A stretch of 64,000 nucleotides of DNA from Isoetes taiwanensis. Lineage: Eukaryota > Streptophyta > Lycopodiopsida > Isoetales > Isoetaceae. Below are positions 12,960-60,105 of the stretch, in pieces (positions within the stretch are counted from its first letter, which is position 1; each line of letters begins with the position of its first letter). The DNA lies in contig JAJEKV010000002.1 in the NCBI GenBank assembly GCA_021234155.1, forward strand, positions 1,022,164 to 1,086,163, given 5' to 3'. Both the position numbers and the translations under genes were made by a program. The notes below the pieces were generated by a model. That model saw nothing but the letters and a program-made list of their open reading frames with translations, was not told the DNA's origin and did no database searches.

Positions 12960-15900
12960 TTCACATGCTGGAAAGACAGGGATTTTAAGATAGGGAGGGG
13001 GAGTGCAGGCCTGGCTTGTTATATAAAGAATAGTGTAGCCAACAATGCATGTATGTTACATTCAGATATCAATAAAAGGTATATGGTCTTGAATATCCAA
13101 TTGAAAAACAAACAAGAGATAGTTCTGATAATTACATATTACCCGCCAAAAAGTGATAAGCTAGAATTGCTGGATCTGGGAGAGAACATAACGAAATGGA
13201 AGGAACAGGGACCAGTGATTATAGTAGGAGATCTAAATGCCAGAACCAGACAAGAACAGGCACAAAGCACACACACGGACGAGAAGGATGGTCAGATAGT
13301 GTATACGGCAAGGACACAGGAATGGCAGAGGGATACAGAAGATAAGACAGAGGTCAATGCTAGGGGTGAATTACTGTTGGAAGTCTGCACGGCAACAGGG
13401 ATGATCATAGCTAATGGCGTGAGAAAATGGAAGGGATCAGGAGGTTTTACGAGCCAAAACACACATGGTAAGAGCATAGTGGATTATATAATTCTGAACG
13501 ATCAAGCAGCAGATAAGATAGAAGAGGTGATGCTACAAAAATGGCCGACTGGGAAAAGGGAAAGCCATAGACCGATTAAATTAACAATCAGACTGGATGG
13601 AAAGCCACAAAAAGATCGCGACACAAAAAAAGGATGATAAGGAAGACAGGTGAGGATTCAATTCCGTGAGAAATACGCAGTAAACCTTCATCCAAACGAT
13701 CGTGGAGGAAATGGGAACATGGGATTGGGGAAAACACAATGCGAAAGTGATAATGGAAACACCCCTCAATGACATCATGGTAAAGGTAGCAATGACGTGT
13801 TTGGGAAAAAAAAGATCAAAATCAGGAAAAAACAGGGCATTCAGAGCTTCAAGATGGTATGATGACGAGTGTAGAGAACACAAGAGGAGAACAAAAAGCA
13901 CAGGGAAAGGAGACATACCGAAGAAAAAGCAAAGATACATAAGATTATTCAGAAGAAAAGATACAATAACCTCGCTACAAAGCACCAATGGTATTTGGGA
14001 AAATTGTTGACAAAATAGCCCCGAAGATTCTGGAGGGGACTCAAAAACAAAGGAGGGGCAGCAATATGAAAGCAAGGAATGAACAAGAAGACATTGGAAC
14101 CGAGGGATGGGAGAGTTACCTGGACAAATTATACAAGACGGGGGCACCCCCGGTGCCAATACCAATGCAGCATGACCCGGACAAACCATGCTTCAACATG
14201 CTAGAAGTAATGCTAGCCCTAAACAGGATGGCTAACCATAAAGCACCAGACCTATACGGCCTGACCGTGGAACTGCTGAAGTGTGCAGAGACAGAAATTG
14301 GTAGACAGGTTACAGACATTTTCAATGGCATCATACATACAGGACTTCTAGACAGATGGACATACAATAGAGTCATACCCCTACATAAGGCAGGAAATAG
14401 AAGAGACCCAGGAAACTATAGGACGATAATGGTAAGCTCGATTTTCGCAAAATGGTTTGGAAAGGTTCTGGATAACGTGACTCTTCGGATATTAATAGAG
14501 CATAACAAAGTGCATGGGAGAAAATAATCACGCTTTGTAGATTTAAAAAGCATTTGATACAATTTCCAGAGAGAAGCCATTAAAAAGACCGATGGACATG
14601 CAAGCCCCGATAAATATGGTAGGATCGATCGCAAAACTATACCACAAGCTGTACGCTAAGATGGAAAAGGAGGGACAGCCGATAGTCTGTGACACTGGTG
14701 TAAAGTAGGGATGTCCGTTATCCCCAACTCTGTTTGGTATATACATAGATGCGCTTCTGAGGGGATACATAGCGTAACAAAGGGGATCGAATACGCCCCA
14801 CACTAGGAGACACGAAGGTACCAATAATGCTATATGCGATGATCTCGATGATGATGGCAACAAAAAACAAGGGGATGCAAGAATGCTCAAAATTCTAGAA
14901 ACGCCTGTGGAGGAGATCTGGCCGACAGCTGAATCTAGCAAAAACTAAGATAGTCATCTTTGGACACAAGAACAAGCATAAACCTTTCGTGATATAAAGA
15001 AAAAGAGATAGAGGAAGCAAATGTAATACGATATCTAGGTTATGATGCGCATGGCACAGGGAAATGGGCCAAGGGAGCTAACGCCAGATTCCAATCAGCT
15101 ATAGGAAGCTGCTTTAACATGAAAAACTTCTGTAACAGAAGCAAGATAACTGATTGGGACATCAAATGTTACCTACTCAGTGCAGCGGTAGCCACTACTC
15201 AATTATACGGAGTGTAGCATGGGGACCAGGTCTAACAGAAAGAAATTGGGAAAAGCAAGAAGGGATTCTTAGACAATGGCACAGACAGGAATTCAGGGTA
15301 AGGACAAACACGCCGCTGACAATCATGGTCCTCGAAACAGGGCAAAAGCCGATGGAGGTGAGAGCATGGGAGAGAACCATGAGGTACCTGCTCAGAGACT
15401 GTCCAGCATCGCAATCACCGAATCAGCAAAATCACACATCCTCGAAAACACTGGATGGTTTAAAGATGTGGCAACATGGACCGTATTGCATGGGATTAAA
15501 CCCGAAAGGACCTAATAGAAGAGGGGCAAGGAATGAGGAGTGGACGTACATAGCGACAAGAGCATGGTCATGAAGACACAGGACCCAAGATGACCGGCTC
15601 GCATGTTTTAACCCAGACAACAAATAGGACACCGTGATATACCGAGATAACACATTGGGGAAAAAACAGGGACATCCCGCCGATTCGGATGGGAAGTCAT
15701 GACCTAATAATCAAAAAGACGATGGAGAGGGGTAGACAAGGAGGACAGGATATGCGTAATATGTGACGGGGAGAATAGAGGATGAGAATCATATGCTTAA
15801 TGATCGGTCCGGCCTACTTTAGACATCGTGTGACGACATACGTAAATATAAGGTGGGGGGAACCAGTCCACAGGCTGATGACGATGACAGAATCATTACG

Positions 15901-18061: not shown

Positions 18062-18833
18062 CTAAATCTCAATTGCCACTTCATCTCTTATATCATGTGC
18101 AATATCATCTAGTTCATCATCACCAAGCTGTAGTTGCAATAAATGTTGAGGCACAGTACCAATTTCTTCATTTCCGTCATCATCGTCATATTCTATAATC
18201 TGATGATTTGGTGAATCCCTTGGTAGACGTAGCATACCTTCAAATGAATTATCCTCGTTGTCAGTCGAATCATGACTTTCTACCTGATCACTTGCCATTT
18301 CATTTGTCTTCTCGAGCATCAATTCCCTCAAGTAAAAGGGTTGGGTCGGTCTCGAAGGATGATAAATCTATATGCATTAAAGTAGAAGGATCAATCATGC
18401 ATCGCGATGTAGGTGTTGCATGAAATACGATCCACCAATCAGTGTCCCTCTGATTTGTATGGAAGAAAACCTGCTCAACTTGTCTAGGATAAACAAATGG
18501 CTCATCCATTTCTCTTAAAAACTGTGTAGAGTTAACCTCATAAAAACCTGATGGATGTTGTCTCATTGTACAATTTCTCCCTCGATAACATGCTTTGAAC
18601 CACTTTGCTTTCAACACATTGACTTTGAAGGAGTGATAATCTACTTCAATGATATCCGTTATTTGACCAACATAATTCAGATCACTTTCTAATGGTTGAG
18701 TGTCTCTAGCTGAAGCTTGACTTTTTTGCTCAAAGCATGCTGCAATACCACTATCAAATGTAACTCTACTTCTATCAGTGCTCATGACTCAAAAATGTTG
18801 TCCATATGCCCACATTGATGTGTAGAATCTTGC
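18062..18833 (-). pseudogene. CACTA transposase 3' exon, DUF4216 domain
   Basis: This minus-strand exon follows a GT-AG intron (18834-18907, acceptor TTTTGTAG). Its translation has the DUF4216 pattern: a DSGIAACFEQKSQASARD segment (family: NSGV...SFASA+D), YVGQITDIIEVDYHSFKV, VLKAKWFKACY, EPFVYPRQVEQVFFHTNQRD and DWWIVFHATP. An acidic C-terminal tail (EYDDDDGNEE) follows. The tail (18331-18062) is one frame off the DUF4216 frame (18785-18300), so there is one indel or an unseen tiny intron. A TGA lies just upstream of 18785. DUF4216 accompanies TNP2-type transposases of CACTA elements. Inactive or nearly so. Confidence 0.8.
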
Positions 18834-18907
18834 CTACAAAAGTTAAAGATTAACAACATAGCAACAACTAAAGTGGAAACTTAAAATAATGTAAATTTGA
18901 GATATAC

Positions 18908-19800
18908 CTTCTTTGAACATCCAAGAGCTACATTATAGTCATCTACTGGAATTTTGACACCTTGACGTTCTGCTTCTTCCGGGCGTTTGGTCTAGTGGTA
19001 ACACACTAGTTCCTTAGCAATGTGGTCTCGAGTTCGAGACCGCCCAGAATCGCACTCGGTACTGTTGGGGGTCAAATCCCAACAAGGCCCAACCAAGCAA
19101 TGTAGTGTGGTGTGTGGTCACATGTCCAGTTGGATGCTGCCTAGTGGCGTGACGTTAAAACTACTATCTATCCATCTTACTTAACAACCACTCTCATGGC
19201 ATTGCTTCTGGCAACGGTTCAAGATCTTTTGAGGTCCTTGTGTTTTCCACGTCTTGCCCTCCTTCTTAAACCATGACTTTTTCTAGTTTCCTCTCTTTCC
19301 ATACAAGCAATCTTATATTGTTCTCTCCATGCATCTAGGCTATCACAGTTTGCCATTACCCACTTGTTTATCTCCAAGTACATTTCTTTGCTAAGTTTGC
19401 ATTCCACACCAATACCTTCAAGAACTTCTCCCATGTCTTCTATACATTGTTCTTTTTGCCATATGCGTGGAGCGTCAACATCTATTGATGTGATTGCATC
19501 ACTCATAAAGAAAAGAATCTCTTGCACGAAATACCCTTCAGCCATGCACGCTTCTGTTCTAGCCATCTGACGAACAAAGCCTTTCAAAACATTCATATAT
19601 CGTTCCAAGAAAAACATCCAATGACCAGGAGTTGGTCCAACCAAACGGATTTCTTCAGGAATATGTGCAAGAAGATGAAGTTGAAGGTCAAACAAGGCAG
19701 TAGGAAAGTTCCGCTCTAATATGCATAACAACTCTGCAACTTCAACCTCCATCATTGATATTTCAGAGGCATTGATCTCTTTTAACGATACCCATCTTTA
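18908..19800 (-). pseudogene. CACTA transposase exon, DUF4218 domain, split by a SINE
   Basis: Frame 19755-19219 carries DUF4218: VAELLCILERNFPTALFDLQ, LHLLAHIPEEIRLVGPT, HWMFFLERYMNVLKGFVRQM and ARTEACMAEGYFVQEILFF. In the family this reads: FPP.FFD...HL..HL..E....GP...RWMYP.ER....K..V+N+..PE.SIAE.Y. The exon then runs to a good 5' splice site (AAG|GTATAT at 18907) only if the SINE at 18978-19202 and one copy of its duplication are ignored, plus a one-base frame shift near 19220-19240. The exon is preceded by an acceptor near 19800. It is part of one minus-strand gene from about 20190 to 18062. Confidence 0.8.
18978..19202 (+). mobile_element. tRNA-derived SINE with 7-bp target duplication
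   Basis: The head is tRNA-like: CCGGGCGTTTGGTCTAGTGG contains a polymerase III box A (TGGTCTAGTGG, near 18987-18997), followed about 33 bp later by a box B (GAGTTCGAGACC, near 19030-19041). GGGCG and CGCCC can close the acceptor stem. A non-tRNA body and a CTATCTATCC-type tail follow. TGCTTCT flanks both ends (18971-18977, 19203-19209). The A box resembles tRNA-Gly/Glu types, but the anticodon arm is too diverged to assign. It interrupts the transposase exon precisely. Confidence 0.8.
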
Positions 19801-35550: not shown

Positions 35551-35584
35551 CCTCATGGAGAATGTCTTTTTTTGGTTAGGACAA

Positions 35585-37198
35585 TGTGACGTCCCCTACT
35601 CCTTATACGATGCACACATCGTATCCGAAGGAGGAGCATTCCCCCTGGCAGCTACACTGACAGGGGCCATCCACCTGACTCCCACTCCCAGTGGAATGAG
35701 CCAACAAGGGAAGAATGGATGTGTCATTCACCCGTCTCCCATCGGGTCGACCTATCTGCGGAAGCGTGAATAAACAAACATGAGCACAAACTAACAGTAT
35801 ATAAATACAATCACCTCGAAGGGTGAGCACACCATCATCATCATATATACAACATCATCAGTATGATCAATATCAACAAGGGAATCCTACCCTAGGCTAT
35901 GACTCAAGAGGGTTCGACTGACAGCTTGGCCCCCAGAAGTCATTGCAGACAGAATTCATGGCAATGGATTTGGCTGGCAAAGGAACATGGCTATTGGGTA
36001 GTCCACTCCATCCGCCCCTCCTGTACACACTTTGCAGAGTGGCTTGATAGGTATTGGGACTGGACCGTAGCCTGCCGGATACGTAGCCAAGAGGGCTACT
36101 ACTGGATTGCATCTCTCCAGCCCCTATATGAGGCAGGAGGAAGGTCACCCTCCCTCCAGAGGCTTCCATGCTCAACACAGGTGGCTAGAGGGCCACTGCC
36201 CTTATTCGACTTGAACCCAATGGAGAGTGACGCATCACTCCACGGGTGTCGAGCCCATGCCTTGCCCACACGCAGTGACAAGGCATTAGACCTAGCTCAC
36301 TAGAATCCCTGGTAGGCCCACACCAGAGGGATTGATCTGTGTTGGGACAAGTACCTCCTTGTTCTGCCGGTCTGGCCTCTCCACCTTCAACCCGGTGGGC
36401 TCCTGTGTACAGGCCGCAATAATTGGGTACTAATGATACTATTCTAGGATCATCTTCTACAAAGCTGCTAGGGTCTTTACCCCCCTTCCCAATACATGGA
36501 GGTCATAGAATGAAATACCAACATTATCATAGAACTTGAAATGAAGAATATCATCTAATCTATTGACCTAAACAACAGAGTTAGGTTTTTTAGTTAGGGC
36601 TTATGATCTTGGGATCTATAAGGCCTCTATGGCTGAACGAATATGCTAAACTACCTCACTGCCTAGCCCAAAGACGGCTTTGCACAACAGAATGACTAGA
36701 TACCTGGTCCTTGACCTGCTCCGGATCCTCGGAATGCATCCATGCTCCTGATCTTGATGAAGATGGATGCTACTCGATGATCTATTGTGCAAAGACGGCT
36801 TTACAGAGCCGAGCAATGCGGAATGGGGTCTTGACTTCGCCGAAATGGCTCAAGGAAACCCTAAATGCGAAAAGGGAAAGAAGCTCTATGAAAACCCTAA
36901 AATGCAAAGAGAGGAAAAGGGTTTAGGGTTTAAGGGGGAACCCTTATATAGAAACCCTTATGGTTAGGTTAAAACATTGGCAAATGGGGTTTAGCCATTT
37001 GGCAATGGGGTCCATGGGGGTTATTAATTGTGTATGTTTATTTAACATGCACAATATTCAAAGTTGCCCCCTAGGTGCAACTCTTGCCCCCTAGGTGCGA
37101 CCTACTACAACCACCAAGTACATGTCATCTGTGACATGTACGGGTGATGTGGCATATAATATACGTATTCGGGGCGTATATTATGCTGGAACGTCACA
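35585..37198 (-). repeat. 3' LTR of the 12.7-kb element
   Basis: About 1614 bp, nearly identical to 46701-48316. It begins (plus strand) TGTGACGTCCCC and ends GGAACGTCACA. It contains two TTTAGGG-like words near 36915 and a TATATAA box near 36950. Confidence 0.95.
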
Positions 37199-37988: not shown

Positions 37989-39199
37989 CTACTGCTTCTC
38001 TAGATCTGATTGTAGCGCCCAAGTAGCATCTTCCACTGGTAAGTGTGTCCACTTCACAAGGTATTGGAGAAATTTTGACCTTCTTGTCTTCTTATAAGCC
38101 CTGTAAAGAAGGACCTCAAGGACGATTTCAAGCTGATTGTCCGTCATTTTCAGCAACTCGGTTGTCTCCAATATCTCCTCTGGATTAGGAGTGTGTTTCT
38201 TTAGGAGACTTACGTGGAAGACCCTATGGATTTTTAGATGTGCTGGCAGGTCCAACTTGTAGGCTTGGGTACCTACTCTTTTGGTAATCCTGAAAGGTCC
38301 AGCCCATCTTGGAGCAAACTTCTTGCAATTGCCGATGCGGAGCTTGGCCTGCTTCACCTTGATCTTCAACCACACCTTGTCTCCCACCTGAAATTCTCTT
38401 ACTGTCCTGCTTGTTGGTGATGCTTTTCTGCCTGCTTCTTGCTGCTAGGAGGTATCCCCTCACCTCCTCCACTAACTCTTGCATCTCCGAAAGCATCTGT
38501 TGGGAGACTTCCACCTTGGACACAGGATTGTGCCAAGTATCCGGATCCGGGGTAAGATATTGGTACCCGTAGTTGATCATAAAAGAACTCATCTGCTCCA
38601 AGACATTTGGAATTCGGAGTTGTTCCGCCTTTGTTTGTTGGCATATCTGGCACTTACGAATGTACCTTGCTATCTCCTTCTTCATGCCAGGCCAGAAGTA
38701 ACTGCTTCTAATTTTGCAGTATGTCTTCATAAACCCTGCATGCCCTGCTATGGGACTATTGTGTGTATCATGTAGGATTAGCTTCCTAACTCCTGAAGAT
38801 TCGGGTACACACAATTTGTTTTTATGGTATAGCAAGTTATTCTCCTTCTTATAGTGCCTAAATGTTTTTCTTTCCTTGTCGGTCCTGGCTTTCTTGCAAA
38901 GACTTGCCCAAACTTCCTTGAAGTCGGCATCTGTTGGCAAGCTTTCTTCAATTTTCTTGCTGAACTCGCTCGTGAGCGTCGAAATTGCATTACAATGCGT
39001 TCTTGTTGCCAAAGGCTTCCTAGAAAGAGCATCTGCAACCACATTGAGCTTTCCTGGCTTATAAATTATCTCGAAGTCATATTCTTCAAGGAATTCCATC
39101 CACCTCCTTTGCCTCAAATTGAAGAGCGGTTGTGTAAATATGTATTGAAGGCTTTGATGATCCGTATCTAGCTGGAATCTTCTTCCCAATAGATAGTGC
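37989..39199 (-). pseudogene. Pol C-terminal part: RNase H end, integrase without catalytic core, chromodomain
   Basis: Frame 39189-38400: LGRR-type start, TDHQSLQYIFTQPLFNLRQR (RNase H end), FEIIYKPGKLNVVADALSR, then the integrase zinc finger (HDTHNSPIAGHAG, then CQICQQTKAEQ; HHCC). Directly after KAEQLRIPNVLEQ the sequence jumps to FMINYGYQYLTPDPDTW, which normally follows the whole DDE catalytic core, so roughly 150 residues with all three acidic residues are deleted (junction near 38590). A frameshift near 38390-38400 leads into WLKIKVKQAKLRIGNCKKF, the GPF-like AGPFRITKRVG, and a C-terminal chromodomain (EVLLYRAYKKTRRSKFLQYL, VKWTHLPVEDATWALQSDLE). The first cage aromatic is absent, as in group II chromodomains. 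Confidence 0.9.
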
Positions 39200-40807
39200 C
39201 TAGATTCTTAAAGCTCTTACAATAGCCAGAAGCTCCTGATCATGCGTTGGGTAGCGCTGTTCCGCAACATTCATTTTCTTCGAATCATAGGTCACTACCC
39301 TTTCCTCCTGCATGAGGACTGCACCTGTTGCTATTCTGCTAGCGTCCGTCGCCACAAGCTTATCTTTGGCCGGGTCTGGCAAGACCAAAACTGGCGCCGT
39401 CGTCAATGCTTCCTTCAATGTGTCAAATGCTTTCTGGGCCTTACTTTGCCAATGAGTTGCTCAATCTTTTATCTTCCCTGCTTTCATAAGATCCGTTAAT
39501 GGTGCTGCTACCTTGATAAAGGTCTTGGCAAACCTTCTATAATAGCCTGCTAGGCCGAGGAAGCTCCTTACTTCATGTGTGTTCTTTGGTGCTGGCCAGT
39601 CTATCACTGCTTCAATCTTGGCAGGGTCCGTGGAGATGCCTTCCGCTATAATCACATGCCCTAGGTACTCCACTCTTTCTGTGGCAAAGTGGCACTTAGA
39701 TAGCTTCGCGAAGAGTTGATGCCTTCTTAGCTTTTCGAGCACCTTTCTCAAATGTTGGGCATGCTCTTCTAGAGATTTGTTGTACACCAAGATGTCGTCG
39801 AAGAAGACTATGATGAAAGAATCTAGGAATTCATGGAAGACATCATTCATGAGCCTCATGAAAGTTGTTGGAGCATTGGACAAACCGAATGGCATCACCG
39901 TGAATTCATAGTGGCCATATCTCATTCTCAAAGCCCACTTGTGGATGTCTTCTTCCTTGATCCTGATCTCGTGATAACCTGATCTCAAGTCTATCTTAGA
40001 AAAGACCTTCGCTCCCTGCAACTGGTCCATGAGATCATCTGATCTAGGCAAGGCATACTTATTCTTAATGGTGTGTTTATTTAACTGGCGGTAGTCAATG
40101 CACATCCTAAGGCTTCCATCCTTCTTCTTTACAAAAAGGATAGGCGCTCCAAAAGGAGAGACACTAGGTCTTATGAACCCTAGGTCTAGCAATTCTTGCA
40201 GTTGCTTCTTCAACTCCGTCAACTCTTCGGTTGACATTCTATAAGGTGCCTTGCTAGTTGGCTTAGTCCCTGGTTCAAGTGCTATTTCACACTCGACTCC
40301 TCTATAGGGTGGAAGCTGCTTGATCTCATCAGGAAATAAGTCCTGAAATTCCTTTATCAACTTTGCTATAGGCTTTGGGAGCTTTTTCACTGCTTTGGCC
40401 TCTTTCTCTTCTTCCGTCTCTTCCTTGTCCGCTTGGAGTCTGAAGATGTAGGCCACTTGCTCTTTCCTTATGCACTTAAGTAATTTCTCGCTCGACATGC
40501 ATTGCATAATTGGTGTTACTTCTTTACCTGCTATCTCGATGATCTTGCCTTCCGGCGTAGTTAAGGTCACCTTACGCTTTCCACAATCAATGATGGCTCC
40601 TGCTGGCCCAAGATAATCCATTCCTATTATCAAATCATATTTGCCGATGTTCATCACTTCGGTTCCCAATACTACGTTGACTCCCGGCAAGTCTATGTTG
40701 AAGTTAATTCTTTTTCCTGCTGTATGCCTGATTGCACCACTAGCCAACACAACCGGTCTAGGCTTTGACTTCAAGGGCTTAAGTCTAGGCTTTGACTTCA
40801 AGGGCAA
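39200..40807 (-). pseudogene. Pol: protease end, reverse transcriptase, RNase H start
   Basis: Frame 40807-39461 (448 codons) has [16 protein letters not shown] (protease C-part), then a full reverse transcriptase: [88 protein letters not shown], the catalytic [11 protein letters not shown], and [18 protein letters not shown] (39461-39463) separates it from RNase H (TDASRIATGAVLMQ, QELLAIVRAL; 39418-39200) in the same frame. A frameshift follows near 39195. A 27-bp in-frame tandem duplication lies at 40755-40803. The protease active site, in the gag frame just upstream, reads LIDTRR where DTG/DSG is expected. Confidence 0.92.
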
Positions 40808-42255
40808 AGTTATGGATGCGCCGTGTATCTATCAAGACTATGAAAGATTTTTCCTTGGCTTTCCCAGTTGTGAAGATTACTTGGTACTGGCTTTCTGCGT
40901 TCTCCGTATCAATGGCTGCAAAAATATGGCACTCACCATGAATATAGTCCGGTGCATCGTCGTCGTCAGCTTCTGTTGGTGTCTCCCATCCCATTTCCGT
41001 TAATGCTGCGTTCATCATCAGGGGGCAGTTGTTTGTCCTATGCCCTGGTTGGAAACACCTAAAGCACAGTTGCTTCTTTATGCACTCCTGCTTCTTCTCT
41101 TTGGGAATGGATTGCAAAAACTGTCTCACTGCCTTGGAATAGTTGGATCTCCCTCCTTGCTCTTTGAAGGTCACCTGTTTCTTATCCTGCTTGCCAGAGT
41201 TTGCATTGCCCTGCTTCCTATAATTAGCATTATACTAAGGCCTGCTGGCTGCTGGGCTCGCCGCTCTTGGGCTATAGCCTCCCGTGCCCTTTCCCTTGTC
41301 ATGGAAATACTACTGTCTTGGTGCATTCTCTTGGGGTCCCGTCCCTTGCAAGCTGACCGCTTTGGATTCCGCTTCTGACACGGTTCTGGGGTTGATTGCT
41401 CTTACTAGTTTCCTGATCTCTTCATTCAACCCCTCTATATAGCCCTCCACTGCGTGCCTTTCACTCAACTTCGGCACATAGAGCCTTAGTCTCATGAATT
41501 CCTCTGTGTACTTTTGAACTGATTTGTTGCCCTGCTGCAATCGGTAAAACTGCTGCATCATGTGACACTTGTGCTCTCTTGGCACATAATGGCGCTTGAA
41601 AGCCTTAGCAAACTTCTTGAACCTGCAACTGTCCCTGCTCAGTCCATGTGCTTTGGAGTAGCCCTTCCACCAAATCCTAGCTGCTCCCTTCAGGTTGGCT
41701 GTAGCTACTTTGCCTTTGTCCTTGTCCTTCATGCCATAGGCATTTCCATATTCCCTCATCTCGTCCAACCATGCTTCTGCTTCCATCCCTGACCTGCTAT
41801 CTCCTAAAAATTGCTCCAGCTTCCTTGCTTTCCATACATTACTGAGCGCTGAGTCGACCTTCTTCTGATAGTCAGATTGTGCCATGCCCCTATCATGGTT
41901 TGGGTTCTCCCGGCGGTCTTGCCTCTCTTCTTCCTGCTCTTCCGATCCGGAGTCAGAGTCTGAACTAGAGTCGGAGGAGCCGCCTGAGCTAGGTGATCTT
42001 CTTCTGTGGGTTCTCTTCCTTTGCTGCACTGTTCGGCCGGCCAGTGTTTCTGGCAATGGCATATTCTGGTCTTGCCCTCATGTTGCTGCTACTGCCAACA
42101 ATGCCCTTATCTCATGAATGTCGGATCGAATCTGTGATAGCTCTTCCTCTGGTGTTACTGCATCAAACTCTTGGCGTAGGTTTCTTGGCTAGAAACGCCT
42201 TGGTGGAGTACGCTCTTGGTCCTGATGTCCTTGTTGTTCAACATTTCTAGGTACT
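40785..42255 (-). pseudogene. Gag with zinc knuckle, broken by four in-frame stops
   Basis: Frame 42062-41310 holds a Ser-rich N-part and the retrotransposon gag core (LEQFLGDSRSGMEAEAWLDE, ARIWWKGYSKAHGL, YRLQQGNKSVQKYTEEFMRL, VEGYIEGLNEEIRKLV). The same frame continues at 41174-40785 with the CCHC zinc knuckle CFRCFQPGHRTNNC and the start of the protease. In-frame stops are TAG 42189-42191, TGA 42078-42080, TAG 41310-41312 and TAG 41235-41237. Both of the last two are followed by TAT. Pol lies in the +1 frame relative to gag. The gag start upstream of 42191 is unclear. Confidence 0.9.
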
Positions 42256-42447: not shown

Positions 42448-43858
42448 TTATTCCTGGAATTTCTTCAAATAATCAGGGTTGTCCTCCAAAACTTTCTTCA
42501 CTTGGGCCGTGCCGATTGTTCTCCCTAGGTTCCTAAGGATGTTTGTGGCCGTGCCTCCTTGAAGTGCTGTCACTAGGTCCTTGATCCTCCTATCCGAAGT
42601 ATATACCTCCCTCATTGCCAACCTGCCCTGCCGTCTGTAGGGGACTGCGAAGTTGAAGATACTTAATGCTATCGTTCTCTTGATAAGGACGACATGGTCG
42701 ATGTTTGGGGCCATCCGAGCATGATTTTCAAATCCCGAGAGGGCGATAAGCATAAAGACTCCTTCTTCACCCCGTGGGCTGAATTGACGGTGTATAACCG
42801 TTATTCTTCCATCTAGGAGTAATGGAAGATAGAACCTAAGGGCTTTATCATGCCCTGCTTCCTCAGCAGAAGTCGAGGTTGCCCTATGTCTTCCCGCGTA
42901 CTCGTCAACCTGCACCTCCTCCAGTTCTCTGAAGTCCTGGTGCACTAATTTCCTCAGGTTGATGATGCCTCCATGCTGCCCTGGTGCCGTTGCCGATGAG
43001 CTAGGTAAGAGTGCTGATGTCGACATACCCTTGATGCCCATGCGCTATTGGATTGCCAGGAACTCTTCTTCTGACGGCAATTCCCTCTCGGTCATCATTT
43101 GTCTGATGCCTGTGTAAGCCTCGATGTCCGATGACGTCTCGCCGGTGTATGTCTTGGCTTCCCCTTATGCTGACGGGGAAGTCTTGAGTTTCTCGATTGA
43201 TGAAGTCGTCGAGATCTGGTTGTTGTCGTAGGAGATGCAGAATTTCATCCACTCTGAAACCCATGTCTCTGCATTCTGGAAGATTTTTAATGTCATGGAG
43301 GCTTAAGTATGCTTCTCCTCCCATGAACACTGGGGTCAAGCTTGTTATTCCTTGCCCAAGTGGTGGGGCTCTTCTTGTTGCTCTGAGTCCTTCTTCGAAG
43401 CCTTGGAGCTGCTGCTCTGCCTGCTGCCTCTCCTGTTCTAGGTCGATGTCTTATGAATCCGATCCGTGTTCCTCCTCTTCTCCCTCCTGTTCGTACTCGA
43501 GGCGCATCTGCTCCTCTTCTGCTGCTGCCATGGCCATGGGTTCAACTTCTAAAGGCTGCAGTGAGGGTTCTCCTATCTGGGTTTGGCCTCGAAGAGATAG
43601 GAAAATAGCTATGGCTGTTGTATAGAAAAAGTACCTCCTCCTATTGACAGAGATAGACATATAATTGGGTAGGCGGACTGCTTTGTTCTCTAAGTACTTG
43701 TCTATGTTTGGGATATCCTGCAGGGCTGACTTAAGGGCCATGCTGGGGGCAAAATATCCTATGCAAGGTGGGAGTTCTACCAAGGACGGTCCTATCTTGG
43801 CATGGAACTCGAACATAATGTCTTGGTAAAAAGGGGTGGCATTGATGGTGGCTTCCAC
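42448..43858 (-). pseudogene. Accessory gene X between the H3-mimic gene and gag
   Basis: About 470 codons read through one in-frame TAA (43451-43453), one frame change near 43150 and one TAG (43045-43047). Pieces: MEATINATPFYQDIMFEFHA, an acidic EEEQMRLEYEQEGEEEEHGS stretch, FMGGEAYLSLHDIKNLPECR, then (43041-42448) LVHQDFRELEEVQVDEYAGR and ILRNLGRTIGTAQVKKVLED. I do not recognise any domain. Ty3/gypsy elements rarely carry genes upstream of gag (Ogre/Tat-type elements do), so its position is notable. Confidence 0.6.
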
Positions 43859-45112
43859 ATCAAGTTCCTTGTGGAAGACGGCAAAGATGGAGTTGAGTTG
43901 ATGTCAGCCTCGGCCACATGAGATGTGGCACTGTACCATCGCCTGAATGCAGTGGTTGCCATGGTCTATGAGCAGCTGGGGATGTCAAACAGATGGGAAA
44001 GCACCTTAGTGGCCTGAAAAATTGGCTTGGAGTGAGGAGCAAGGGTGTAGGATGCAAATGACACTTGTGGTCCTATTTATAGGCAAAACCCTAATTTTGG
44101 GAAAATTCAAAGTTGGGAAATATCTATGATTCTAAGCTCTAGGTATATAATTCACAGACTAACTATGCTAAAGAATGCATTCTAAGGATCCTATAGCAAC
44201 AAATTTCACCTAATTTGGGGAAAGTATGGACAAGCTAGGGCAATTTTAGTGTGACCACTCACCGCGGTGCACCGGGGTCGATTTGGGTTTGCAAACCCCG
44301 GGTGGTCCAAGCGCACTCGAGAGGGGTGGGGCCTTATTTGGGTCAAGGATGATGCCAAACATGGAAATTAAGGATGGAAACCTGCATATCTCGTCGAGGT
44401 AGGTCGGATTGAGCCCTTACTTGCCTCATTTGGACAAGTTTTGGCCTAGTTTTGGGGTCGACCACTCACACAGTGCGCCAGGGTCGAATCGGTTTGCAAA
44501 CCGAATTGGTCTGGGCGCACCCTGTGAGGGGTGTGGCTCCATTTGAGTTAGGGTTGGGCAATTTCTACAAACTAGGGGTCAAATCTTACATTAAGGTGAG
44601 CTGAGTTGAATGATATACTTACTTTCTGCATTTGGACAAGATTTGGCATCAAACCAAGCTCGACCACTCACACAGTGCGCCAGGGTCGAATCGGTTTGCA
44701 AACCGAATTGGTCTGGGCGCACTCTGTGAGGGGTGGGGTCAAAAACACTTGGGTTTGCTCCAAATTTGTTAATTCCAAGTATAGAACTTAGTAACACAAC
44801 CTACTTACACTTGATTTAACACATTGTATTAACAAAATTTATTTACAACAGTCTTAATATGGCTTCTTCTTTATGTATTGGGCTAGCCTTATATCCTTGG
44901 GCATACAAGCTACTCTTTTTGCATGCATAGCACATGCAACAGAGTCTTCGAAGTGTCTGACCACGTGCTGCTCGGCTGCCTCCTATAACGCGAGCAACAT
45001 ATCACCTGTAACTCGCTTGGACTTGTCGAATTCTTGCAAAATCTCCCGTGTCAGCCTCGCGAAGGGAGCTCTGGGGATGATAACTCTGGGGATGATAACT
45101 CTGCTGAAAATG
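43859..45112 (-). other. Non-coding stretch of the retroelement with three hairpin repeats
   Basis: No long frame. It holds hairpin copies at 44255-44330, 44462-44536 and 44664-44738 and a mostly AT-rich remainder. Confidence 0.6.
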
Positions 45113-46488
45113 TCAGATCTCCCGAGCAGCTCTAGAAAAATTGGAGTTCGCCTTCCTCTTTGGTGGAGCAGGTCTCTCAGGTGGCGGCTTCAGAGTGTTG
45201 TTCTTAGTCGGCCGGCCTCCTTCGACAAACGTGACCTTGTGCTCGTCATAATACTTGGAGTATTCTTCGTACATTTTCATGTACGAAGTGTACTCTTTCA
45301 GGTTCTTCCTATACTCAAGGTCCTGCTTGAGTATATACGACTCCCTCTGTGGCTTCGGCTTCTTGGTGCTGTCGCTGGGGTGCTTTGGCGACGGCCACCT
45401 AAGGTACGGGGGCACCCTTGCTACTACATCGTCCTCCTCCCGCGCTGTATTTGAGGGTCCCGAGCCCTCAGCTGGGTCGGGCATCCTAGTTCCCTCATCT
45501 GACTCAGTGTCAGATGAGGATGGAGGCTTCTCGGGGGCTGGCTCCTGGATAATGACTCCTTTGGCGGGAGTCGTCTTCATCTTGCGCTTTGAGTCCTTTG
45601 GCAGCGCAGGAGCTTTTCTTTTCGCTGCCCTCAGCTTCTCGCGCTCCTCCCGCCGCCTCTTCTTTTCCTCCCTCTTCTGCTTCTTCTCTTGCTTTCTCTT
45701 GCGCCCCTCCTCTTTCTCCTTGCGGCGCTCTTCTCTCTCGAGCTCCCTCTGCAATAACTCTGCTGCTTCTTCCACTGTGAGTTCTTGTGCTACCTCTTCA
45801 AGGCCTTGGGGCCGCTCCTCTTTCTGGTGCTCAGGGGCTTCCTCCTGGTGCTCAGGGGCCTCCTCTTGTGTATCTGGGTTAGGTTGGGCCTCCTGCTCTT
45901 CGTGATCCCGCTCGGCTCGCTCTTGAGCCCGTCGGGCCTTCTGCCGAGCTGCTCGCTCTTGGGCGCTCACATGTCCAGGGGAGACTGTAATCCGGGCTGT
46001 CTGTTTGGTGCGGGCCATGTCTTTGTTTGAAGCAATCCGAGCTCGGGCACCTAGAAATCGTTCTCTGGGACGAGTTGTTCTCCGAAGGCGCTGGGGACAA
46101 ATGAGGAACCCTAATTTTCTATTTATAGGCAGGGGAATTTTAGGGTTTGGACCTGCAATTTCATATTGGGCCAATCTGGAAGGTCTTATTGAAGATCTGA
46201 GAGGTACTTTAGGTTTGTTTAGCCAAAAAGCATCCACCACTCACACAGTGCCCTGGGCGCACTCTGTGAGGGGTCATCTCTTTTTGGGTCCAATTTTCAA
46301 TTTACAAGGGGTTTCTTAGTGTTATAACATGCAAAACTAGCTAGAATCAAGGAGATAAGCTGAACTGTACCATTACTTTAGCTAAATTACACATCTAACT
46401 AGGTCAACAAGGGTCCACCACTCACACAGTGCACCAAGGTCGAATTGGTTTGCAAATCGATTTGGTCTGGGCGCACTCTGTGAGGGGT
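44255..46488. repeat. Five copies of a roughly 75-nt dyad-symmetric hairpin
   Basis: Copies at 44255-44330, 44462-44536, 44664-44738, 46237-46274 (centre deleted) and 46418-46488. Outer arms are CCACTCACACAGTGCGCC and GGGCGCACTCTGTGAGGGG. The centre has a perfect inner palindrome TCGGTTTG/CAAACCGA. The two at 44462 and 44664 differ at a single position over the shared core. The array straddles the H3-mimic gene: three copies downstream of it and two between it and the primer site. Confidence 0.9.
45113..46018 (-). CDS. Retroelement accessory protein with histone H3 N-terminal tail mimic
   Basis: An uninterrupted 301-codon frame starts at ATG 46018-46016 (context AAAGACATGG, purine at -3, G at +4). 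An in-frame ATG 74 codons upstream exists, but its extension looks like leader sequence and overlaps a hairpin. Residues 1-9 are MARTKQTAR. Removal of Met (normal before Ala) exposes ARTKQTAR, identical to histone H3 residues 1-8, including R2, T3, K4, T6 and R8. It then diverges (ITVSPGHVS). Next come a basic/acidic helix (about 18-45), an EEAPEHQ repeat, a long charged coiled coil (about 85-140: REEREKL, KRKQEKKQKREEKK), a lysine-rich part that could serve as nuclear signal, an acidic PSSSDTESDEG (about 170), a Tyr-rich helix (EYTSYMKMYEEYSKYYDEHK, about 245-265) and a basic tail. I infer a nuclear chromatin-directed role. It could also be a coincidence fixed in one lineage. Confidence 0.7.
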   Translation of the reverse strand: MARTKQTARITVSPGHVSAQERAARQKARRAQERAERDHEEQEAQPNPDTQEEAPEHQEEAPEHQKEERPQGLEEVAQELTVEEAAELLQRELEREERRKEKEEGRKRKQEKKQKREEKKRRREEREKLRAAKRKAPALPKDSKRKMKTTPAKGVIIQEPAPEKPPSSSDTESDEGTRMPDPAEGSGPSNTAREEDDVVARVPPYLRWPSPKHPSDSTKKPKPQRESYILKQDLEYRKNLKEYTSYMKMYEEYSKYYDEHKVTFVEGGRPTKNNTLKPPPERPAPPKRKANSNFSRAAREI

Positions 46489-46687: not shown

Positions 46688-46699
46688 GCTCTGATACCA
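46688..46699 (-). promoter_or_regulatory. Primer-binding site, initiator tRNA-Met
   Basis: The minus strand reads TGGTATCAGAGC, the classic plant initiator-Met primer site, one base from the 5' LTR end. It fixes the element orientation as minus. Confidence 0.97.
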
Positions 46700-46700
46700 C

Positions 46701-48316
46701 TTTCATGTCCCCTACTCCTTATACGATGCACACATCGTATCTGAAGGAGGAGCATTCCCCCTGGCAGCTACACTGACAAGGGCCATCCACCTGACTCCAC
46801 TCCCAGTGGAATGAGCCAGCAAGGGAAGAATGGATGTGTCATTCACCCGTCTCCCATCGGGTCAACCTATCTGCGGAGGCACGAATAAACAAACATGAGC
46901 ACAAACTAACAGTATATAAATATAATCACCTCGAAGGGTGAGCACAACATCATCATCATATATACAATATCATCAGTATGATCAATATCAATAAGGGAAT
47001 CCTACCCTGAGCTCTGACTCAAGGGGGTTCGACTGACAGCTTGGCCTCCAAAAGTCATTGCAGACAGAATTCATGGCAATGGATTTGGCTGGCAAAGGAA
47101 CATGGCTGTTGGGTAGTCCACTCCATCCGCCCCTCCTGTACACACTTTGCATAGTGGCTTGATAGGTATTAGGACTGGACCGTAGCCTGTCGGATACGTA
47201 GCCAAGAGGGCTACTACTGGATTGCATCTCTCCAGCCCCTATGAGGCAGGAGGAAGGTCACCCTCCCTCCAGAGGCTTCCATGCTCAACATAGGTGGCTA
47301 GAGGGCCACTGCCCTTATTCGACTTGAACCCAATGGAGAGTGACGCATCACTCCACGGGTGTCGAGCCCATGCCTTGCCCACACACAGTGACAAGGCATT
47401 AGACCTAGCTCACTAGAATCCCTAGTAGGCTTTACACACCAGAGGGATTGATCTGTGTTGGGACAAGTACCTCCTTGTTCTGCCGATCTGGCGCCTCCAA
47501 CTTCAACCCGGTGGGCTCCTGTGTACAGGCCGCAATAATTGGGTACTAATGGTACTATTATAGGATCATCTTCCACAAAGCTGCTAGGGTCTCTACCTCC
47601 CATCCCAATACATGGAGGTCACAGAATGAAATACCAACATCATCACAGAACTTGAAATGAAGAATATCATCTAATCTATTTACCTAAACAACAGAGTTAG
47701 GTTCTTTAGTTAGGGCTTATGATCTTGGGATCTATAAGGCCTCTATGGCTAAATGAATATGCTAAACTACCTCACTGCCTAGCCCAAAGACGGCTTTGCA
47801 CAACAGAATGACTAGATACCTGGTCCTTGACCTGTTCTGGATCCTCGGAATGCATCCATGCTCCTGATCTTGCTGAAGATGGCTGCTACTCGATGATCTG
47901 TTGTGCAAAGACAGCTTTGCAGAGCCGAGCAATGCGGAATGGGGTCTTGACTTGGCCGAAATGGCTCAAGGAAACTCTAAATGCAAAAAGGGAAAGGAGC
48001 TATATGAAAACCCTAAAATATAAAGAGAGGAAAAGGGTTTAGGGTTTAAGGGGGAACCCTTATATAGAAACCCTTAGGGTTAGGTTAAAACATTGGCAAA
48101 TGGGGTTTAGCCATTTGGCAATGGGGTCCATGGGGGTTATTAATTGTGTATGTTTATTTAACATGCACAATATTCAAAGTTGCCCCCCTAGGTGCAACTC
48201 TTGCCCCCTAGGTGCAACCTACTACAACCACCAAGTACATGTCATCCGTGACATGCACGGGTGACGTGGTAGTATAATATACGTATTCGGGACGTATACT
48301 ATGCTGGAACATCACA
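46701..48316 (-). repeat. 5' LTR of the 12.7-kb element
   Basis: Matches 35585-37198. The inner tip (46701-46708) is mutated relative to TGTGACGT. On the minus strand it starts TGTGATGTTCC and carries a TATA box at 48066-48058. Confidence 0.95.
48058..48066 (-). promoter_or_regulatory. LTR TATA box
   Basis: The minus strand reads CTATATAAGGG about 250 bp into the 5' LTR. The same word occurs in the 3' LTR and marks a likely polymerase II start. Confidence 0.55.
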
Positions 48317-48345
48317 GACAAAAGGGAGTCTCTTCACATTTTCTC

Positions 48346-50795: not shown

Positions 50796-52474
50796 TGTGA
50801 CGTCCCCTACTCGTATACGGTGCCCTCACCATATACAAACAGGAGTTCATCCCCCATACCAGCTCCATGCTAATGCACACCCTCCACATGACACCGCAAA
50901 CGTGGTGGCGGGTTCCGGTGGGAAGAGTGGAAGGGTCATTGCACCGTCTCCCTCGGGGCCTACCTAGTCTGCGGGCGTAAAACATACATGTCGTTAGCAC
51001 ATACATCAACATCATATGACCATCACGAAGGATGGTCCTCCACATATCTGCAAAGACAAAGATCAAGACATCACATAGGAATCCTACCCAAGGCTCGGAC
51101 TCAAAGGGATGACCCGACGGCTTGGGTCTCCTCGGAGTTCATTGCGGGCGAATTCATGGCAATGGATTTGGTCGGCATATGAACATGGCTTAGGGTTGTC
51201 CACTCCATCCGCCCCTCCCATTGCACACTTTGCGAGTGGTCTCAAAAGTGTCGGGACTGACCAGAGCTCACGGATGCATAGCCAAAGGGCTACTCCCGGG
51301 CTCATCCTCCCGATTCAGATGGGGCGGGTAGGGATCACTCCCTCCGAGAGATCTACATCTTTGACTCAAGGTGACTAGAGGGCCACCGCCTATTCGACCG
51401 AACCCACCGGAAAGTGAGCACCACTTCCGCGGTGTGTCGAGCCCATGCCTTGCCCACACGCGTGGCAAGCCATTGGACCTAGTCACAATGATCCCGGTAG
51501 GCTTTACACACCCGGAGGGATGGCTTCAAGAGTCGGGACATGAACCTCCTTCTCGGCCGGTCCGCCCCTTCACCCACATCCCTGTGGCTCTTGTGCAGTA
51601 GGCCGAATCTACAAGCAGTGCTAGAGAGGCTACTCTAGGAGCATCAACTACAAAGCTTTAGGTCTCTACCCCCTTCCCAATACAAGGAGTTCATAGAGAT
51701 ACATCATACATATACTTCACATGAGAACTAAAGAACTAGATCTAATCTACATCATAGAGTTAGGTTCTTTTGGTTAGAATCGCTATCTAGAGATCCTGAA
51801 GGGCTGCTATGGGCAATTTAATAGGCTAAACCCTATCTTGATTCAATGACTAGAAGATGGTTTAAGCTATTAAATTGACCAAATACCTAATCCTTGGCTT
51901 GCTTCTCTCTCGCCACGAACTTCGACCATCCCTGAAATGCTCGAATCAAGGGAAACTAATGATGCGGTTCTCTCATAAAGTTCAGGGAGGCGGTTTTAGC
52001 TCTTGAGGCAGCCAAAAACAGAGCTCTAAAACCCTAGAAACGAAAATGGGCAAGTTAGGGTTCTCCTACTTAAATAGACAAGGGGTTGGCTAGGGTTTCC
52101 AATTATCCCCTTTAGGCATGTGGGATAATTGGGAATGGGCCCACTTGCCTTTAATGGCTAGGTGGCCAAATGTGCCCACATGGAAATGTGTGCACCCAAT
52201 TAATGTGTACATTGGAAAATGTGCACATTAATTGCACACACTTGGGTATGGCCCACTTGGCATCAAGTGGCCACATGGAAATGTGTGCCCACATTAATGT
52301 GTACATTGGAAAATGTGCACATTAATTCTAATGCACATTCTTAGCAAGTTGCCCCTAGGGGCTACCCACTTGGCTACGTCGTATTACCGCGTCGGTCGGG
52401 GTGGCGTGTGCGGCGTGGCGGCAAAAGATGCGATACGCCCCGGGGCCGTATATCGCGGCCTTTGGAACGCCACA
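50796..52474 (-). repeat. 3' LTR of a second Ty3/gypsy copy
   Basis: TGTGACGTCCCC ... GGAACGCCACA. It is a diverged relative of the LTRs of the 12.7-kb element. It contains an internal duplication (about 52186-52240 and 52275-52330) built around a hairpin ATTAATGTGTACAT/ATGTGCACATTAAT. Confidence 0.85.
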
Positions 52475-54431
52475 TTCTCCCCACCTTGAAATGATGTCGT
52501 CCAAAGATCGTGGGTCTCCCCACCTTGAATCTTCCTAACCTGCAATCAACCCGATGCATACGTATACTACTATAATACTTACACAGTTATTACGATTACC
52601 TTAAGGTAATATTTTTAAATCATTATTACGCCATTACATTATCAAATAAGTTGTCAATTCGTAACTTCTACTAAAACAAGGTACTTATTAGTTTCTATTA
52701 TCACAACATTTAGTTTATCACAATTTAACACTTTCATATATAATTATTATTTAAGGTACTCTTCATTCCTTGCAACACATTCCAACAAAATTTGTGTTGC
52801 AGGTCTTCGCACCTTAAAATCCTGCATTAATTTTACAATATCTATAATTACATACTTACTATTTTAATTATTATAATTACTCTAAGGTAATGTTTAAGAC
52901 ATTACTATTTCATTATCCAATTAACTTATCACATCATAACTTAATCCACGCAAGGTAATTATTAACCTTACTTAATACAACATTTAAGTTTATCAAAGTT
53001 TAACACTACCTGCAGGTCGACACTACCTATTATTAATTATTAATAAAATTTTGGTTATATGGTGACCACCCCACCTATCTACATGGATGCATGGCTAATC
53101 TCCCGGCGTAGGAAGAGGGTGAATCTTCCATTATGGCCGTGGAGCGGCGCAGTATGCCTATATGCCGCTCATGCCTACACCTCTAGTTGCCCGGTGGAGG
53201 ATATCCTTCCCGTGGGAAGGATAGATTCCTCCTATCAAAGCATATATGGGGCTAAAGGTGCCTTTCCTATCAATGCATTCCTCAATGACCTCCTTTCTCT
53301 CGAGGTCGTCTACTTCCGTGGGACAGAAGTAGACTTTCTAATCTACCTTCCACTCGTCCAAGCGGAAACGCGGTCATGCCTACATTGACATTACACCACG
53401 CCCTAGAGATCACCGTAGTGGTCTCATCATCGCAGAACAACGCATGCAATCCATACCAAGCATAGGTTGCATGCGCAGATTAATCTTAACTACACATAGA
53501 ATTAATCTACACAAATCGACATGCCCGAGCGATTTTTTTTTCGGCTCCTTTTAATGCATGTGATTAACATAATTACCCTAAGGTAATATTTATGAATTAA
53601 CATTATCATATTATCGGATACATTACTTCCGATAGTACAATTAAATTTACTCTAAGCTTTGCAATATTTAACGACTTTTAGATCGCGATTATTTAAACAA
53701 TAACCCTACTTCCGACCTATTGTTACATAGACAAGGTTTTAATTATCATACACAAGAATTAGATGTGCTTCTTATTCTCTTCCTTGGGTCTGCATTACCC
53801 TTGGAAGTATATCCCTAAGATGCACTTAAGTATATCCTAAATTCTATTTTCTATTTATATTTATAAGGACCTATAGCTATCCTTGGAAGGAATTGCATCC
53901 TTATGAAGGATTAATTAACATGCTACTTCACATTATCGTTGTTATTTAACTTATTTCCCTATGATACATATCACGTACAACAATTTCTATCACGGTTATT
54001 AGGATCTATATTTAACTTATCAATAAGACACATTAAAGCTTATAATACATCGCATACCTTACCTAAGGCTAGAGCGCATCCACTCATTGAGCCGTCGAGT
54101 AGTTTGGAGGTGACTTGGTCGTTCATTGCTCCCATAGTTTTGCTCCACTTAGTTGGTGTAGTTAAGCTACTACGTCGGTCTCGCCGCGTTGAAGGCCTCT
54201 GAGCTATCTATCTATCTATCTTACGCTCTATTAAACCCGGCATGCCGAGTGAACTCTATTCTGAATTAGGTCAATTGATTGCAAATGCGTTCAATCATAA
54301 GATTGAGCCCTCCCACTTTCTTCGAAAAGAAAATGGTCCTGCACCCCTTCAATGACATTGCACACAACGTCATATCTATTCTCTCCCCTTAAGAGGTTAT
54401 ACGCTTCTTACTTAGCGCATTAAGTTACTAG
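52475..54431 (-). mobile_element. 3' internal region of the second Ty3/gypsy copy
   Basis: The polypurine tract word (52475-52487) and about 850 bp alignable with 37212-37980 follow the LTR. Beyond about 53360 similarity ends and no pol frame is found, so the copy is probably decayed or non-autonomous. It carries three ATTACCYTAAGGTAAT palindromes (52595-52610, an imperfect one at 52876-52891, 53572-53587) and a (CTAT)n run at about 54206. Its other LTR should lie to the right of the window. Confidence 0.6.
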
Positions 54432-58679: not shown

Positions 58680-59695
58680 TCGTTTCCCACGTGCCATGTT
58701 TGAGCCACCTTGGCATGTTGGAGCCTAGGTGGCCTTGGAGCCCGTGTGGCATGTTTGAGCCACCTTGCATGTTGGAGCCTGGGTGGCATGTCTTGATGTG
58801 TTGGAGCCTAGGTGGCATGTTTGAGCCACTTTGGCATGTTAGAGCCTAGGTGGCATGTTGGAGCCCACCTAAAGGTTATCATATTTCTTGCATAAAGTTG
58901 TAGTCATCATGTCCACATCACCACCATCTAGCCATGTCAACCAAAATTTGCCAACGTCACCCAATGAAAAGACCAAAGATGGACATCTTTTCATTTTTGG
59001 CCTAGTCAAAACTTGGCCTTGCTTAGTTGGCATGCCATCTCACCGCTTGAAATGCCTAGGTGGCATGCCTGAGCCACCTTGGCATGTTGGAGCCTAGGTG
59101 GCATGTTGGAGCCCACATGGCATGTTTCAACCACCTTGGCATGTTTGAGCCTAAGTGGCATATTTGGCACGTTGGAGCCTAAGTGGCATGTTGGAGTCCA
59201 GGTGGCATGTTGGAGCCCACGTGGCATATGTTGGAGCCTAGATGGCATCTTTGAGCCACCTTGCCATGTTTGTGCATAGGTGGCATGTTTGAGCCACCTT
59301 GGCATGTTGGAGCCTAGGTGGCATGTTGGAGCCACCTTGGCATGCTTGAGCCACCTTGGCATGTTGGAGCCTAGGTGGCATGTTTGAGCCACCTTGACAA
59401 GTTGGATCCCGCATGGCATGTTTGATCCACCTTGGCATGTTTGAGCCACCTTGGCATGTCGAAGCCTAGGTGTCATGTTTGAGCCACCTTGGCATGTTGG
59501 AGTCTATGTGGCATGTTTGAGCCACCTTGGCATGTTGAAGCCTAGTTGCCATGTTGGAGCCACCTTGGCATGTTTGAGCCACCTTGGCATGTTGAAGCCT
59601 AGTTGCCATGTTGGAGCCACCTTAGCATGTTTGAGCCACCTTAGCATGTTTGAGCCACCTTGGCATGTTGGAGCCTAGGTAGCATGTTTGAAGTC
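58680..59695. repeat. Hairpin-forming minisatellite (18-20 bp monomers)
   Basis: Two alternating monomers, TTGAGCCACCTTGGCATG and TTGGAGCCTAGGTGGCATG, fill 58687-58866 and 59055-59690. GCCACCTTGGC and GCCTAGGTGGC are inverse complements at 10 of 11 positions, so each pair can fold into a hairpin with a loop of about 8 bases. All long frames here on both strands are repeat translations. Confidence 0.9.
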
Positions 59696-60105
59696 AAATG
59701 CTAGTGAAGTGTGTCAAGCATATATAACTCTTGTATGCTGCCATTTTGTGGCAATAATGGCATGTGGACAACTTGGTCATACATGAATTTTTAGAAAACC
59801 TTAAAAAACCACATCTCAAAAAAACACTACCTTAAAAAACAACACCTTTAAAAAAAACATCCCTTCAAAAAACCATATGCTTGAGAAAACAACACATCCT
59901 TAAAAAAGACACTACACCTCCTTAAGAAACCACCCATTCTTTAAAAAAAAAAACTACATATTCTTAAGAAAAACTACAGTATATCCTTGGAAAACCACAC
60001 CCCCATATAACTACGTGTAGGTTTTTTCCAAATCTTCAAAAAAACAACACGTATTTTGTTTTTACTGTTGTTTTCAGCCGTGGACCAAATGTTGGGGTTA
60101 GTGTG

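Follow-up and report, generated by a model that had tools for sequence, protein, structure and literature searches.

The window, by which we mean the whole 64,000-nucleotide stretch of Isoetes taiwanensis DNA that was analyzed, contains a Ty3/gypsy element that bears a chromodomain, has retained its two LTRs and is bounded by a TTGTC target-site duplication; an H3-like gene is situated between its primer-binding site and gag (Table 1). A preliminary description of this DNA had placed the frame studied here within a retrotransposon and had pointed to chromodomain-bearing Ty3/gypsy elements; the paired LTRs with TTGTC on both sides and a PF00385 match (E 7.2e-8) bear this out. The LTR pair is 95.5% identical (65 mismatches in 1605 aligned sites), which corresponds to a K2P distance of 0.042 (4.2%), and the primer-binding site TGGTATCAGAGC is presumably of the initiator-Met tRNA type. 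The domains follow the order gag, protease/reverse transcriptase/RNase H and integrase with a C-terminal chromodomain; by this domain order and the chromodomain we assign the element to the chromovirus type of Ty3/gypsy. It resembles other elements of this type in its LTRs, its TGGTATCAGAGC site, gag, reverse transcriptase, RNase H, H2C2 domain and C-terminal chromodomain, and differs from them in that two additional sense units, the H3-like one included, separate the primer-binding site from gag, and in the lack of a detectable integrase core in the present copy. Since only about 240 nt separate the H2C2 domain from the SH3 domain and none of the scanned element pieces matched an integrase core, this copy of the element is defective.

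Table 1. Coordinates of the retrotransposon, its H3-like gene and the associated signals within the window.
Feature	Position	Strand	Evidence or remark
Target-site duplication TTGTC, 5' side	48317..48321	.	sequence
5' LTR (aligned part)	46707..48316	-	LTR TATA at 48066
Primer-binding site TGGTATCAGAGC	46688..46699	-	behind 5' LTR
Internal TATA box TATAAATAG	46119..46127	-	109 nt upstream of ORF1 ATG
ORF1, tail part of H3-like gene	45113..46018	-	MARTKQTAR... to ...SRAAREI, then TGA
H3 histone fold, first piece (A)	44986..45114	-	about H3 residues 60-92; contains 15-bp tandem duplication; other frame than ORF1
In-frame TAG stop	44983..44985	-	at position of H3 residue 93
H3 histone fold, second piece (B)	44854..44982	-	H3 residues 94-131; ends KKKPY + TAA (44856-44854)
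AATAAA	44838..44843	-	first base 11 nt past TAA of H3-like gene
Second internal TATA box (TATAAAT)	44075..44081	-	ahead of ORF2
ORF2 region, first open piece	43451..43858	-	no known domain
ORF2 region, second open piece	42448..43041	-	no known domain
gag capsid	41310..42062	-	PF03732 E 9.8e-18
Nucleocapsid zinc knuckle piece (weak)	40785..41174	-	PF13696 E 4.9e-4, PF00098 E 5.4e-3, both under cut-off
Protease remnant + reverse transcriptase	39461..40807	-	PF00078 E 2.1e-38, PF08284 E 4e-4
RNase H remnant + integrase H2C2	38224..39189	-	PF17921 E 1.4e-20, PF17917 E 6.6e-6
Integrase C-terminus: SH3 + chromodomain	37989..38387	-	PF24626 E 9.6e-23, PF00385 E 7.2e-8
3' LTR	35585..37198	-	alignment reaches 35591; end ACGTCACA read to 35585
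Target-site duplication TTGTC, 3' side	35580..35584	.	sequence

Searching the window with ten protein pieces of the element at E 0.01 gave no second match for any of them, and no second H3-like gene was found within the window. Scans of the window with Rfam at gathering score and for tRNAs returned zero matches each. At 51078-51697, 53080-53355 and 1184-1426 lie older sequences related to the LTR and the 3' internal part of the element, with 73-79% identity. Other residents of the window are a LINE-like endonuclease from an endonuclease-reverse transcriptase element at 13053-13637 on the plus strand (PF14529), DUF4216 and DUF4218 frames at 18300-19755 on the minus strand, and a long array of a 19-bp repeat at 58690-59760; a frame of 156 codons (59476..59006), in which SNMPRWLKHAKV-like units recur, remains open through this array. 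DUF4216 and DUF4218 are typical of plant CACTA transposons, and the two frames suggest a CACTA-type remnant and a plant genome.

The second of the extra units lies between the H3-like gene and gag (43960-42448, minus strand); it has a TATA box to itself and includes open pieces. Neither of the two scanned ORF2 pieces matched Pfam, and a single-sequence structure model of the second piece was uninformative (pLDDT 33.7). Palindromic hairpin repeats of 56-85 nt were observed on the minus strand at 46490-46411, 46282-46227, 44738-44657, 44536-44455 and, weakly, 44331-44247, on either side of the H3-like unit and also ahead of ORF2. Four of these five fold far better than shuffled sequences (z -3.6 to -5.6) and the fifth does not (z -0.66); the motif of the hairpin arm, allowing at most three mismatches, occurs eight times in the window, always inside 44463-46486.

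ORF1 comprises 301 codons plus TGA and opens with MARTKQTARITVSPGH. Its residues after the Met match residues 1-8 of histone H3 exactly, as had been described for the frame at 46018..45113 on the minus strand. The choice of the ATG holds as well: it is the first one of a frame whose phase is open upstream as far as a GTG at 46240, with no ATG in that stretch, and the same-phase ATGs above this GTG are separated from ORF1 by stops. The GC content per codon position (0.625/0.442/0.635) is coding-like, and ORF1 on its own gave no domain match in a Pfam scan.

A degenerate DNA pattern for MARTKQTAR has a single match in the window when as many as three mismatches are allowed, and none of 100 shuffles contained a match. 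As a yardstick for chance, a near-identical pattern, made narrower at a single position by CAR in place of CAN, was run over the prokaryote collection genome_contigs (257 Gb); this collection and viral_contigs are not plant collections and gauge chance only, not plant proteins. The MARTKQTAR pattern had no match in viral_contigs. Ten prokaryotic stretches matched, seven of which are H3 (L003, L006-L010 and, as a short H3 start, L004), presumably through eukaryotic contamination. The remaining three frames measure 22, 28 and 19 aa, and the 22-aa one reads MASTKQTAR; a non-H3 protein of at least 60 aa was not found among the ten. On these results we dropped a chance origin of the MARTKQTAR start, which the preliminary description had already considered very unlikely; the match is far beyond chance because of homology to H3. 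Relatives of ORF1, reverse transcriptase and gag were also sought in viral_contigs, where 12, 14 and 12 stretches, respectively, carried a short pattern and none was confirmed.

Directly past the TGA of ORF1, on the same strand and in a shifted frame, there is a degenerate H3 histone fold (45114..44857) with a single in-frame TAG. The preliminary description had confined the gene to ORF1; that frame exists, but the H3-like gene extends beyond its end to 44854. The first piece of the fold (A) reads DIFSRVIIPRVIIPRAPFARLTREILQEFDKSKRVTGDMLLAL, followed by TAG, and the second (B) has 42 residues before the TAA. Piece B matched PF00125 above the family cut-off (E 1e-6, profile positions 85-121) and piece A below it (E 1.2e-3, profile positions 53-83); the two stretches of the profile adjoin. 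In the PDB, the top match of piece B was histone H3 (E 5.6e-9), and the best 60 of its 173 matching sequences at E<=0.1 were named H3 or histone-domain protein; piece A matched weakly, with Drosophila CID (E 0.056) ahead of H3.1 (E 0.11). Profile, PDB search and alignment to H3 thus identify an H3-type fold, with piece A under the Pfam cut-off. Pieces A and B align gap-free to residues 60-131 of the H3 of L006, 35 of 71 readable columns being identical. R69, R72, R83, C110, H113, K115, R116, K122, D123, L126 and I130 are kept and R63, K64, K79 and T118 are changed, all of which we take to be DNA-contact, dimer or modified positions. The present copy does not possess an intact H3 frame, which is broken by the frameshift and the TAG.

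Tail and fold are collinear, since ORF1 ends in SRAAREI where H3 has TVALREI; the join between them carries the frameshift and the 15-bp tandem duplication. In the alpha-N region the likeness is limited to AAREI versus ALREI of H3, and PGTVAL ahead of it is absent. Residues 9-60 of ORF1 bear no likeness to the H3 tail (751 of 2000 shuffles scored equally well), and that of residues 9-301 is not significant (421 of 2000). Ile occupies the H3 K9 position, and there is no K9/K27 block: ARKS, ARKT and TARK are all absent from the ORF1 tail. A K27-like RAAKRKAPA, equalled by 42 of 2000 shuffles, was noticed post hoc and is not claimed. With canonical H3 and H3 variants (PF00125) the gene therefore has in common its first eight residues and the half-identical, gap-free fold; it differs from them by about 300 residues ahead of the aligned part (from H3 residue 60) instead of 59, by the missing K9, the half-diverged fold and the broken frame, and by its location in an LTR element.

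The preliminary description had interpreted the N-terminus as H3-tail mimicry by a retrotransposon protein, and an ORF1 without a known domain of its own would suit an unrelated protein that had acquired such a peptide. Histone-tail mimics are represented by the SNAG domain of SNAI1 at LSD1, by PAF15 and by influenza NS1, and they share with ORF1 an H3-like N-terminal or tail peptide beyond the core histones. These, however, are short motifs in unrelated proteins, whereas here an H3 histone fold follows immediately downstream on the same strand. We dropped mimicry on account of this adjoining fold and regard it as highly improbable. Judged from its sequence, the start of ORF1 came down from a genuine histone rather than arising as a short mimic. 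The suggested recruitment or titration of H3K4 machinery is unlikely at the present locus because this copy is defective, its histone frame being broken and its integrase incomplete.

Which kind of H3 gave rise to the gene bears on a further alternative, descent from the centromeric variant CENH3 instead of ordinary H3. The MARTK start, the long variable tail and the fast divergence are shared with CENH3/CENP-A, and the best PDB match of piece A, Drosophila CID, points in the same direction; fast divergence, the long tail, IPRAPF and the C-terminal KKPY are, in our estimation, reminiscent of plant CENH3, and we counted them in its favor. Loop 1 of CENH3 is longer than that of H3. In the H3-like gene it aligns gap-free at the length found in H3, two residues shorter than in a working version of the Arabidopsis CENH3 sequence, and the alignment score was 171 against the H3 of L006 versus 132 against this CENH3 version. 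Because the gene lacks MARTKH and PGTVAL and its loop 1 is no longer than that of H3, we did not file the gene as CENH3, and we consider such a descent unlikely. According to excerpts of PMC9842635, MARTKH and PGTVAL are reportedly invariant in the CENH3 species aligned by work cited there.

The H3-like gene owns a TATA box, an ATG, a TAA and an AATAAA. TATA boxes, start sites and AATAAA were called as sequence matches, and the transcription starts given here are presumed. From the presumed start at 46095 to the ORF1 ATG, the leader would measure 77 nt and contains no ATG, while for transcription beginning at the LTR TATA (presumed start 48040) 39 ATGs would precede that of ORF1. The 13-nt TGCCTATAAATAG at the TATA box of the H3-like gene is identical to 13 nt before ORF2, an equal score being reached by 1 of 500 shuffles. 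The H3-like gene thus appears to be a transcription unit of its own with a candidate private promoter. We are confident that ORF1 represents the N-terminal part of a broken, divergent, long-tailed H3-like gene that a chromodomain Ty3/gypsy LTR retrotransposon carries as cargo, together with the gene's own promoter and poly(A) signal, in the interval from primer-binding site to gag; this cargo gene is known from one copy in one element.

In our simulation, about 0.35 substitutions per site are required before unconstrained drift brings an H3 fold down to 49% identity. With substitutions only and the tail taken to be as old as the fold, the simulated number of stops in 386 codons was 10.2 at 0.3 and 12.1 at 0.4 substitutions per site, and the chance of at most one stop was 0.002 at 0.3 and 0/500 at 0.4. 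At 0.021 substitutions per site, half the LTR divergence, 1.0 stop is expected and 1 was observed. For the fold alone, the drift test gave a P of 0.385 for at most one stop, with conservative changes at 0.389 against 0.265 (sd 0.071); taken by itself, the fold thus gives no sign of constraint. Because one stop is seen where about 10-12 would be expected under drift, the H3-like gene seems to have stayed open during its divergence and to have broken, by frameshift, TAG and 15-bp duplication, after insertion. The simulation does not distinguish constraint within the element from constraint on a host gene that was captured later. The present copy of the gene is dead.

Long divergence under constraint could have taken place in the host, and only a single copy is seen; both would fit a one-off passenger, in which this copy or its recent parent captured a host H3-variant gene or pseudogene that plays no role for the element. 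Parallels are found in two reports: host sequences that elements have transduced are present as one copy or a few, most often in sense orientation, which is also the case here (PMC7264820), and a fungal hAT transposon captured H3 and multiplied it to hundreds of copies, all but the original being inactivated (PMC6710886). The H3-like gene, however, brings a promoter and a poly(A) signal, and the capture was therefore not from a mature mRNA alone; moreover, its 13-nt TATA core and the hairpin repeats recur at the ORF2 unit, as would be expected of a settled internal region. We give the passenger slightly less than an even chance. A nested insertion, through which the H3-like gene would have joined the element after the element's own insertion, for instance as a retrocopy, could draw on the hairpin repeats on both sides of the block and on the frequent nesting of plant elements described in part of PMC7264820. 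The TATA box, the lack of an A-run after AATAAA, the location of the gene on the gag-pol strand and a level of decay that agrees with the age of the LTRs all speak against it, and we view it as quite improbable.

The capture of H3 by transposons as such is already known. As far as the consulted sections of PMC6710886 go, a hAT DNA transposon has spread 784 H3-like copies in the single genome of Pseudocercospora fijiensis, and similar H3 captures are told for other fungi. The likeness to our element consists in a transposon with H3 coding sequence and broken copies; the fungal case concerns a DNA transposon for which an intronless transcript or retrocopy was inferred and whose copies were broken by RIP (same sections of PMC6710886), whereas the Isoetes gene has an LTR retrotransposon as its carrier, its own TATA box, a much lengthened tail and one copy. 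A Culex Helentron has likewise captured histone sequence bearing a stop and a frameshift, but, according to excerpts of PMC4067079, it is a rolling-circle element with short fragments that are 83-84% identical to host genes. Additional ORFs are known in plant LTR elements, also upstream of gag-pol (PMC7264820, in part), and the extra genes of plant Ty3/gypsy elements mostly lack known domains (PMC9289625, in part). The orchid Ty3/gypsy elements with an ORF for an AlkB-type m6A demethylase are comparable as plant elements with a host-type regulatory gene; as the same excerpts of PMC9289625 have it, their cargo is an RNA demethylase that was retained through several replication rounds and is active in vitro, whereas here it is a histone in one broken copy. 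In the openly accessible journal literature searched, we came across neither an LTR retrotransposon reported to carry a histone nor a captured H3 that combines a tail of 300 residues with a promoter of its own, and no paper joining ARTKQTAR with retrotransposon and gypsy; the word "histone" is absent from the available text of PMC5408684 and PMC6338049.

Most likely, the long-tailed H3-like gene was a self-contained unit that the element carried along. Its intact product might, with less certainty, have paired with H4 and entered nucleosomes, where its N-terminus would offer H3K4-type sites and not the K9 site. Chromatin or chaperone pools containing such a protein would be harder to mark by K9-type silencing because K9 is replaced by Ile and ARKS, ARKT and TARK are absent from the tail, and the element could thereby bias its own chromatin. 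Chromodomains of one plant group bind H3K9me, according to excerpts of PMC12786077, and changes in K9 marks may therefore help or harm the element. A broader proposal, that a plant retrotransposon lineage encodes a long-tailed H3 variant from a private promoter and that this variant, with the H3K4 end kept and K9 gone, helps to resist heterochromatin in nucleosomes of the element or the host, strikes us as rather unlikely. A diverged, long-tailed H3 that has its own promoter and resides in an LTR retrotransposon would tie a mobile element directly to the nucleosome, and, should the family have intact copies, one could ask whether a transposon rewrites its own chromatin by supplying a histone. 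What looks like a histone-tail mimic can, as this case shows, turn out to be the start of a genuine histone gene that has survived.
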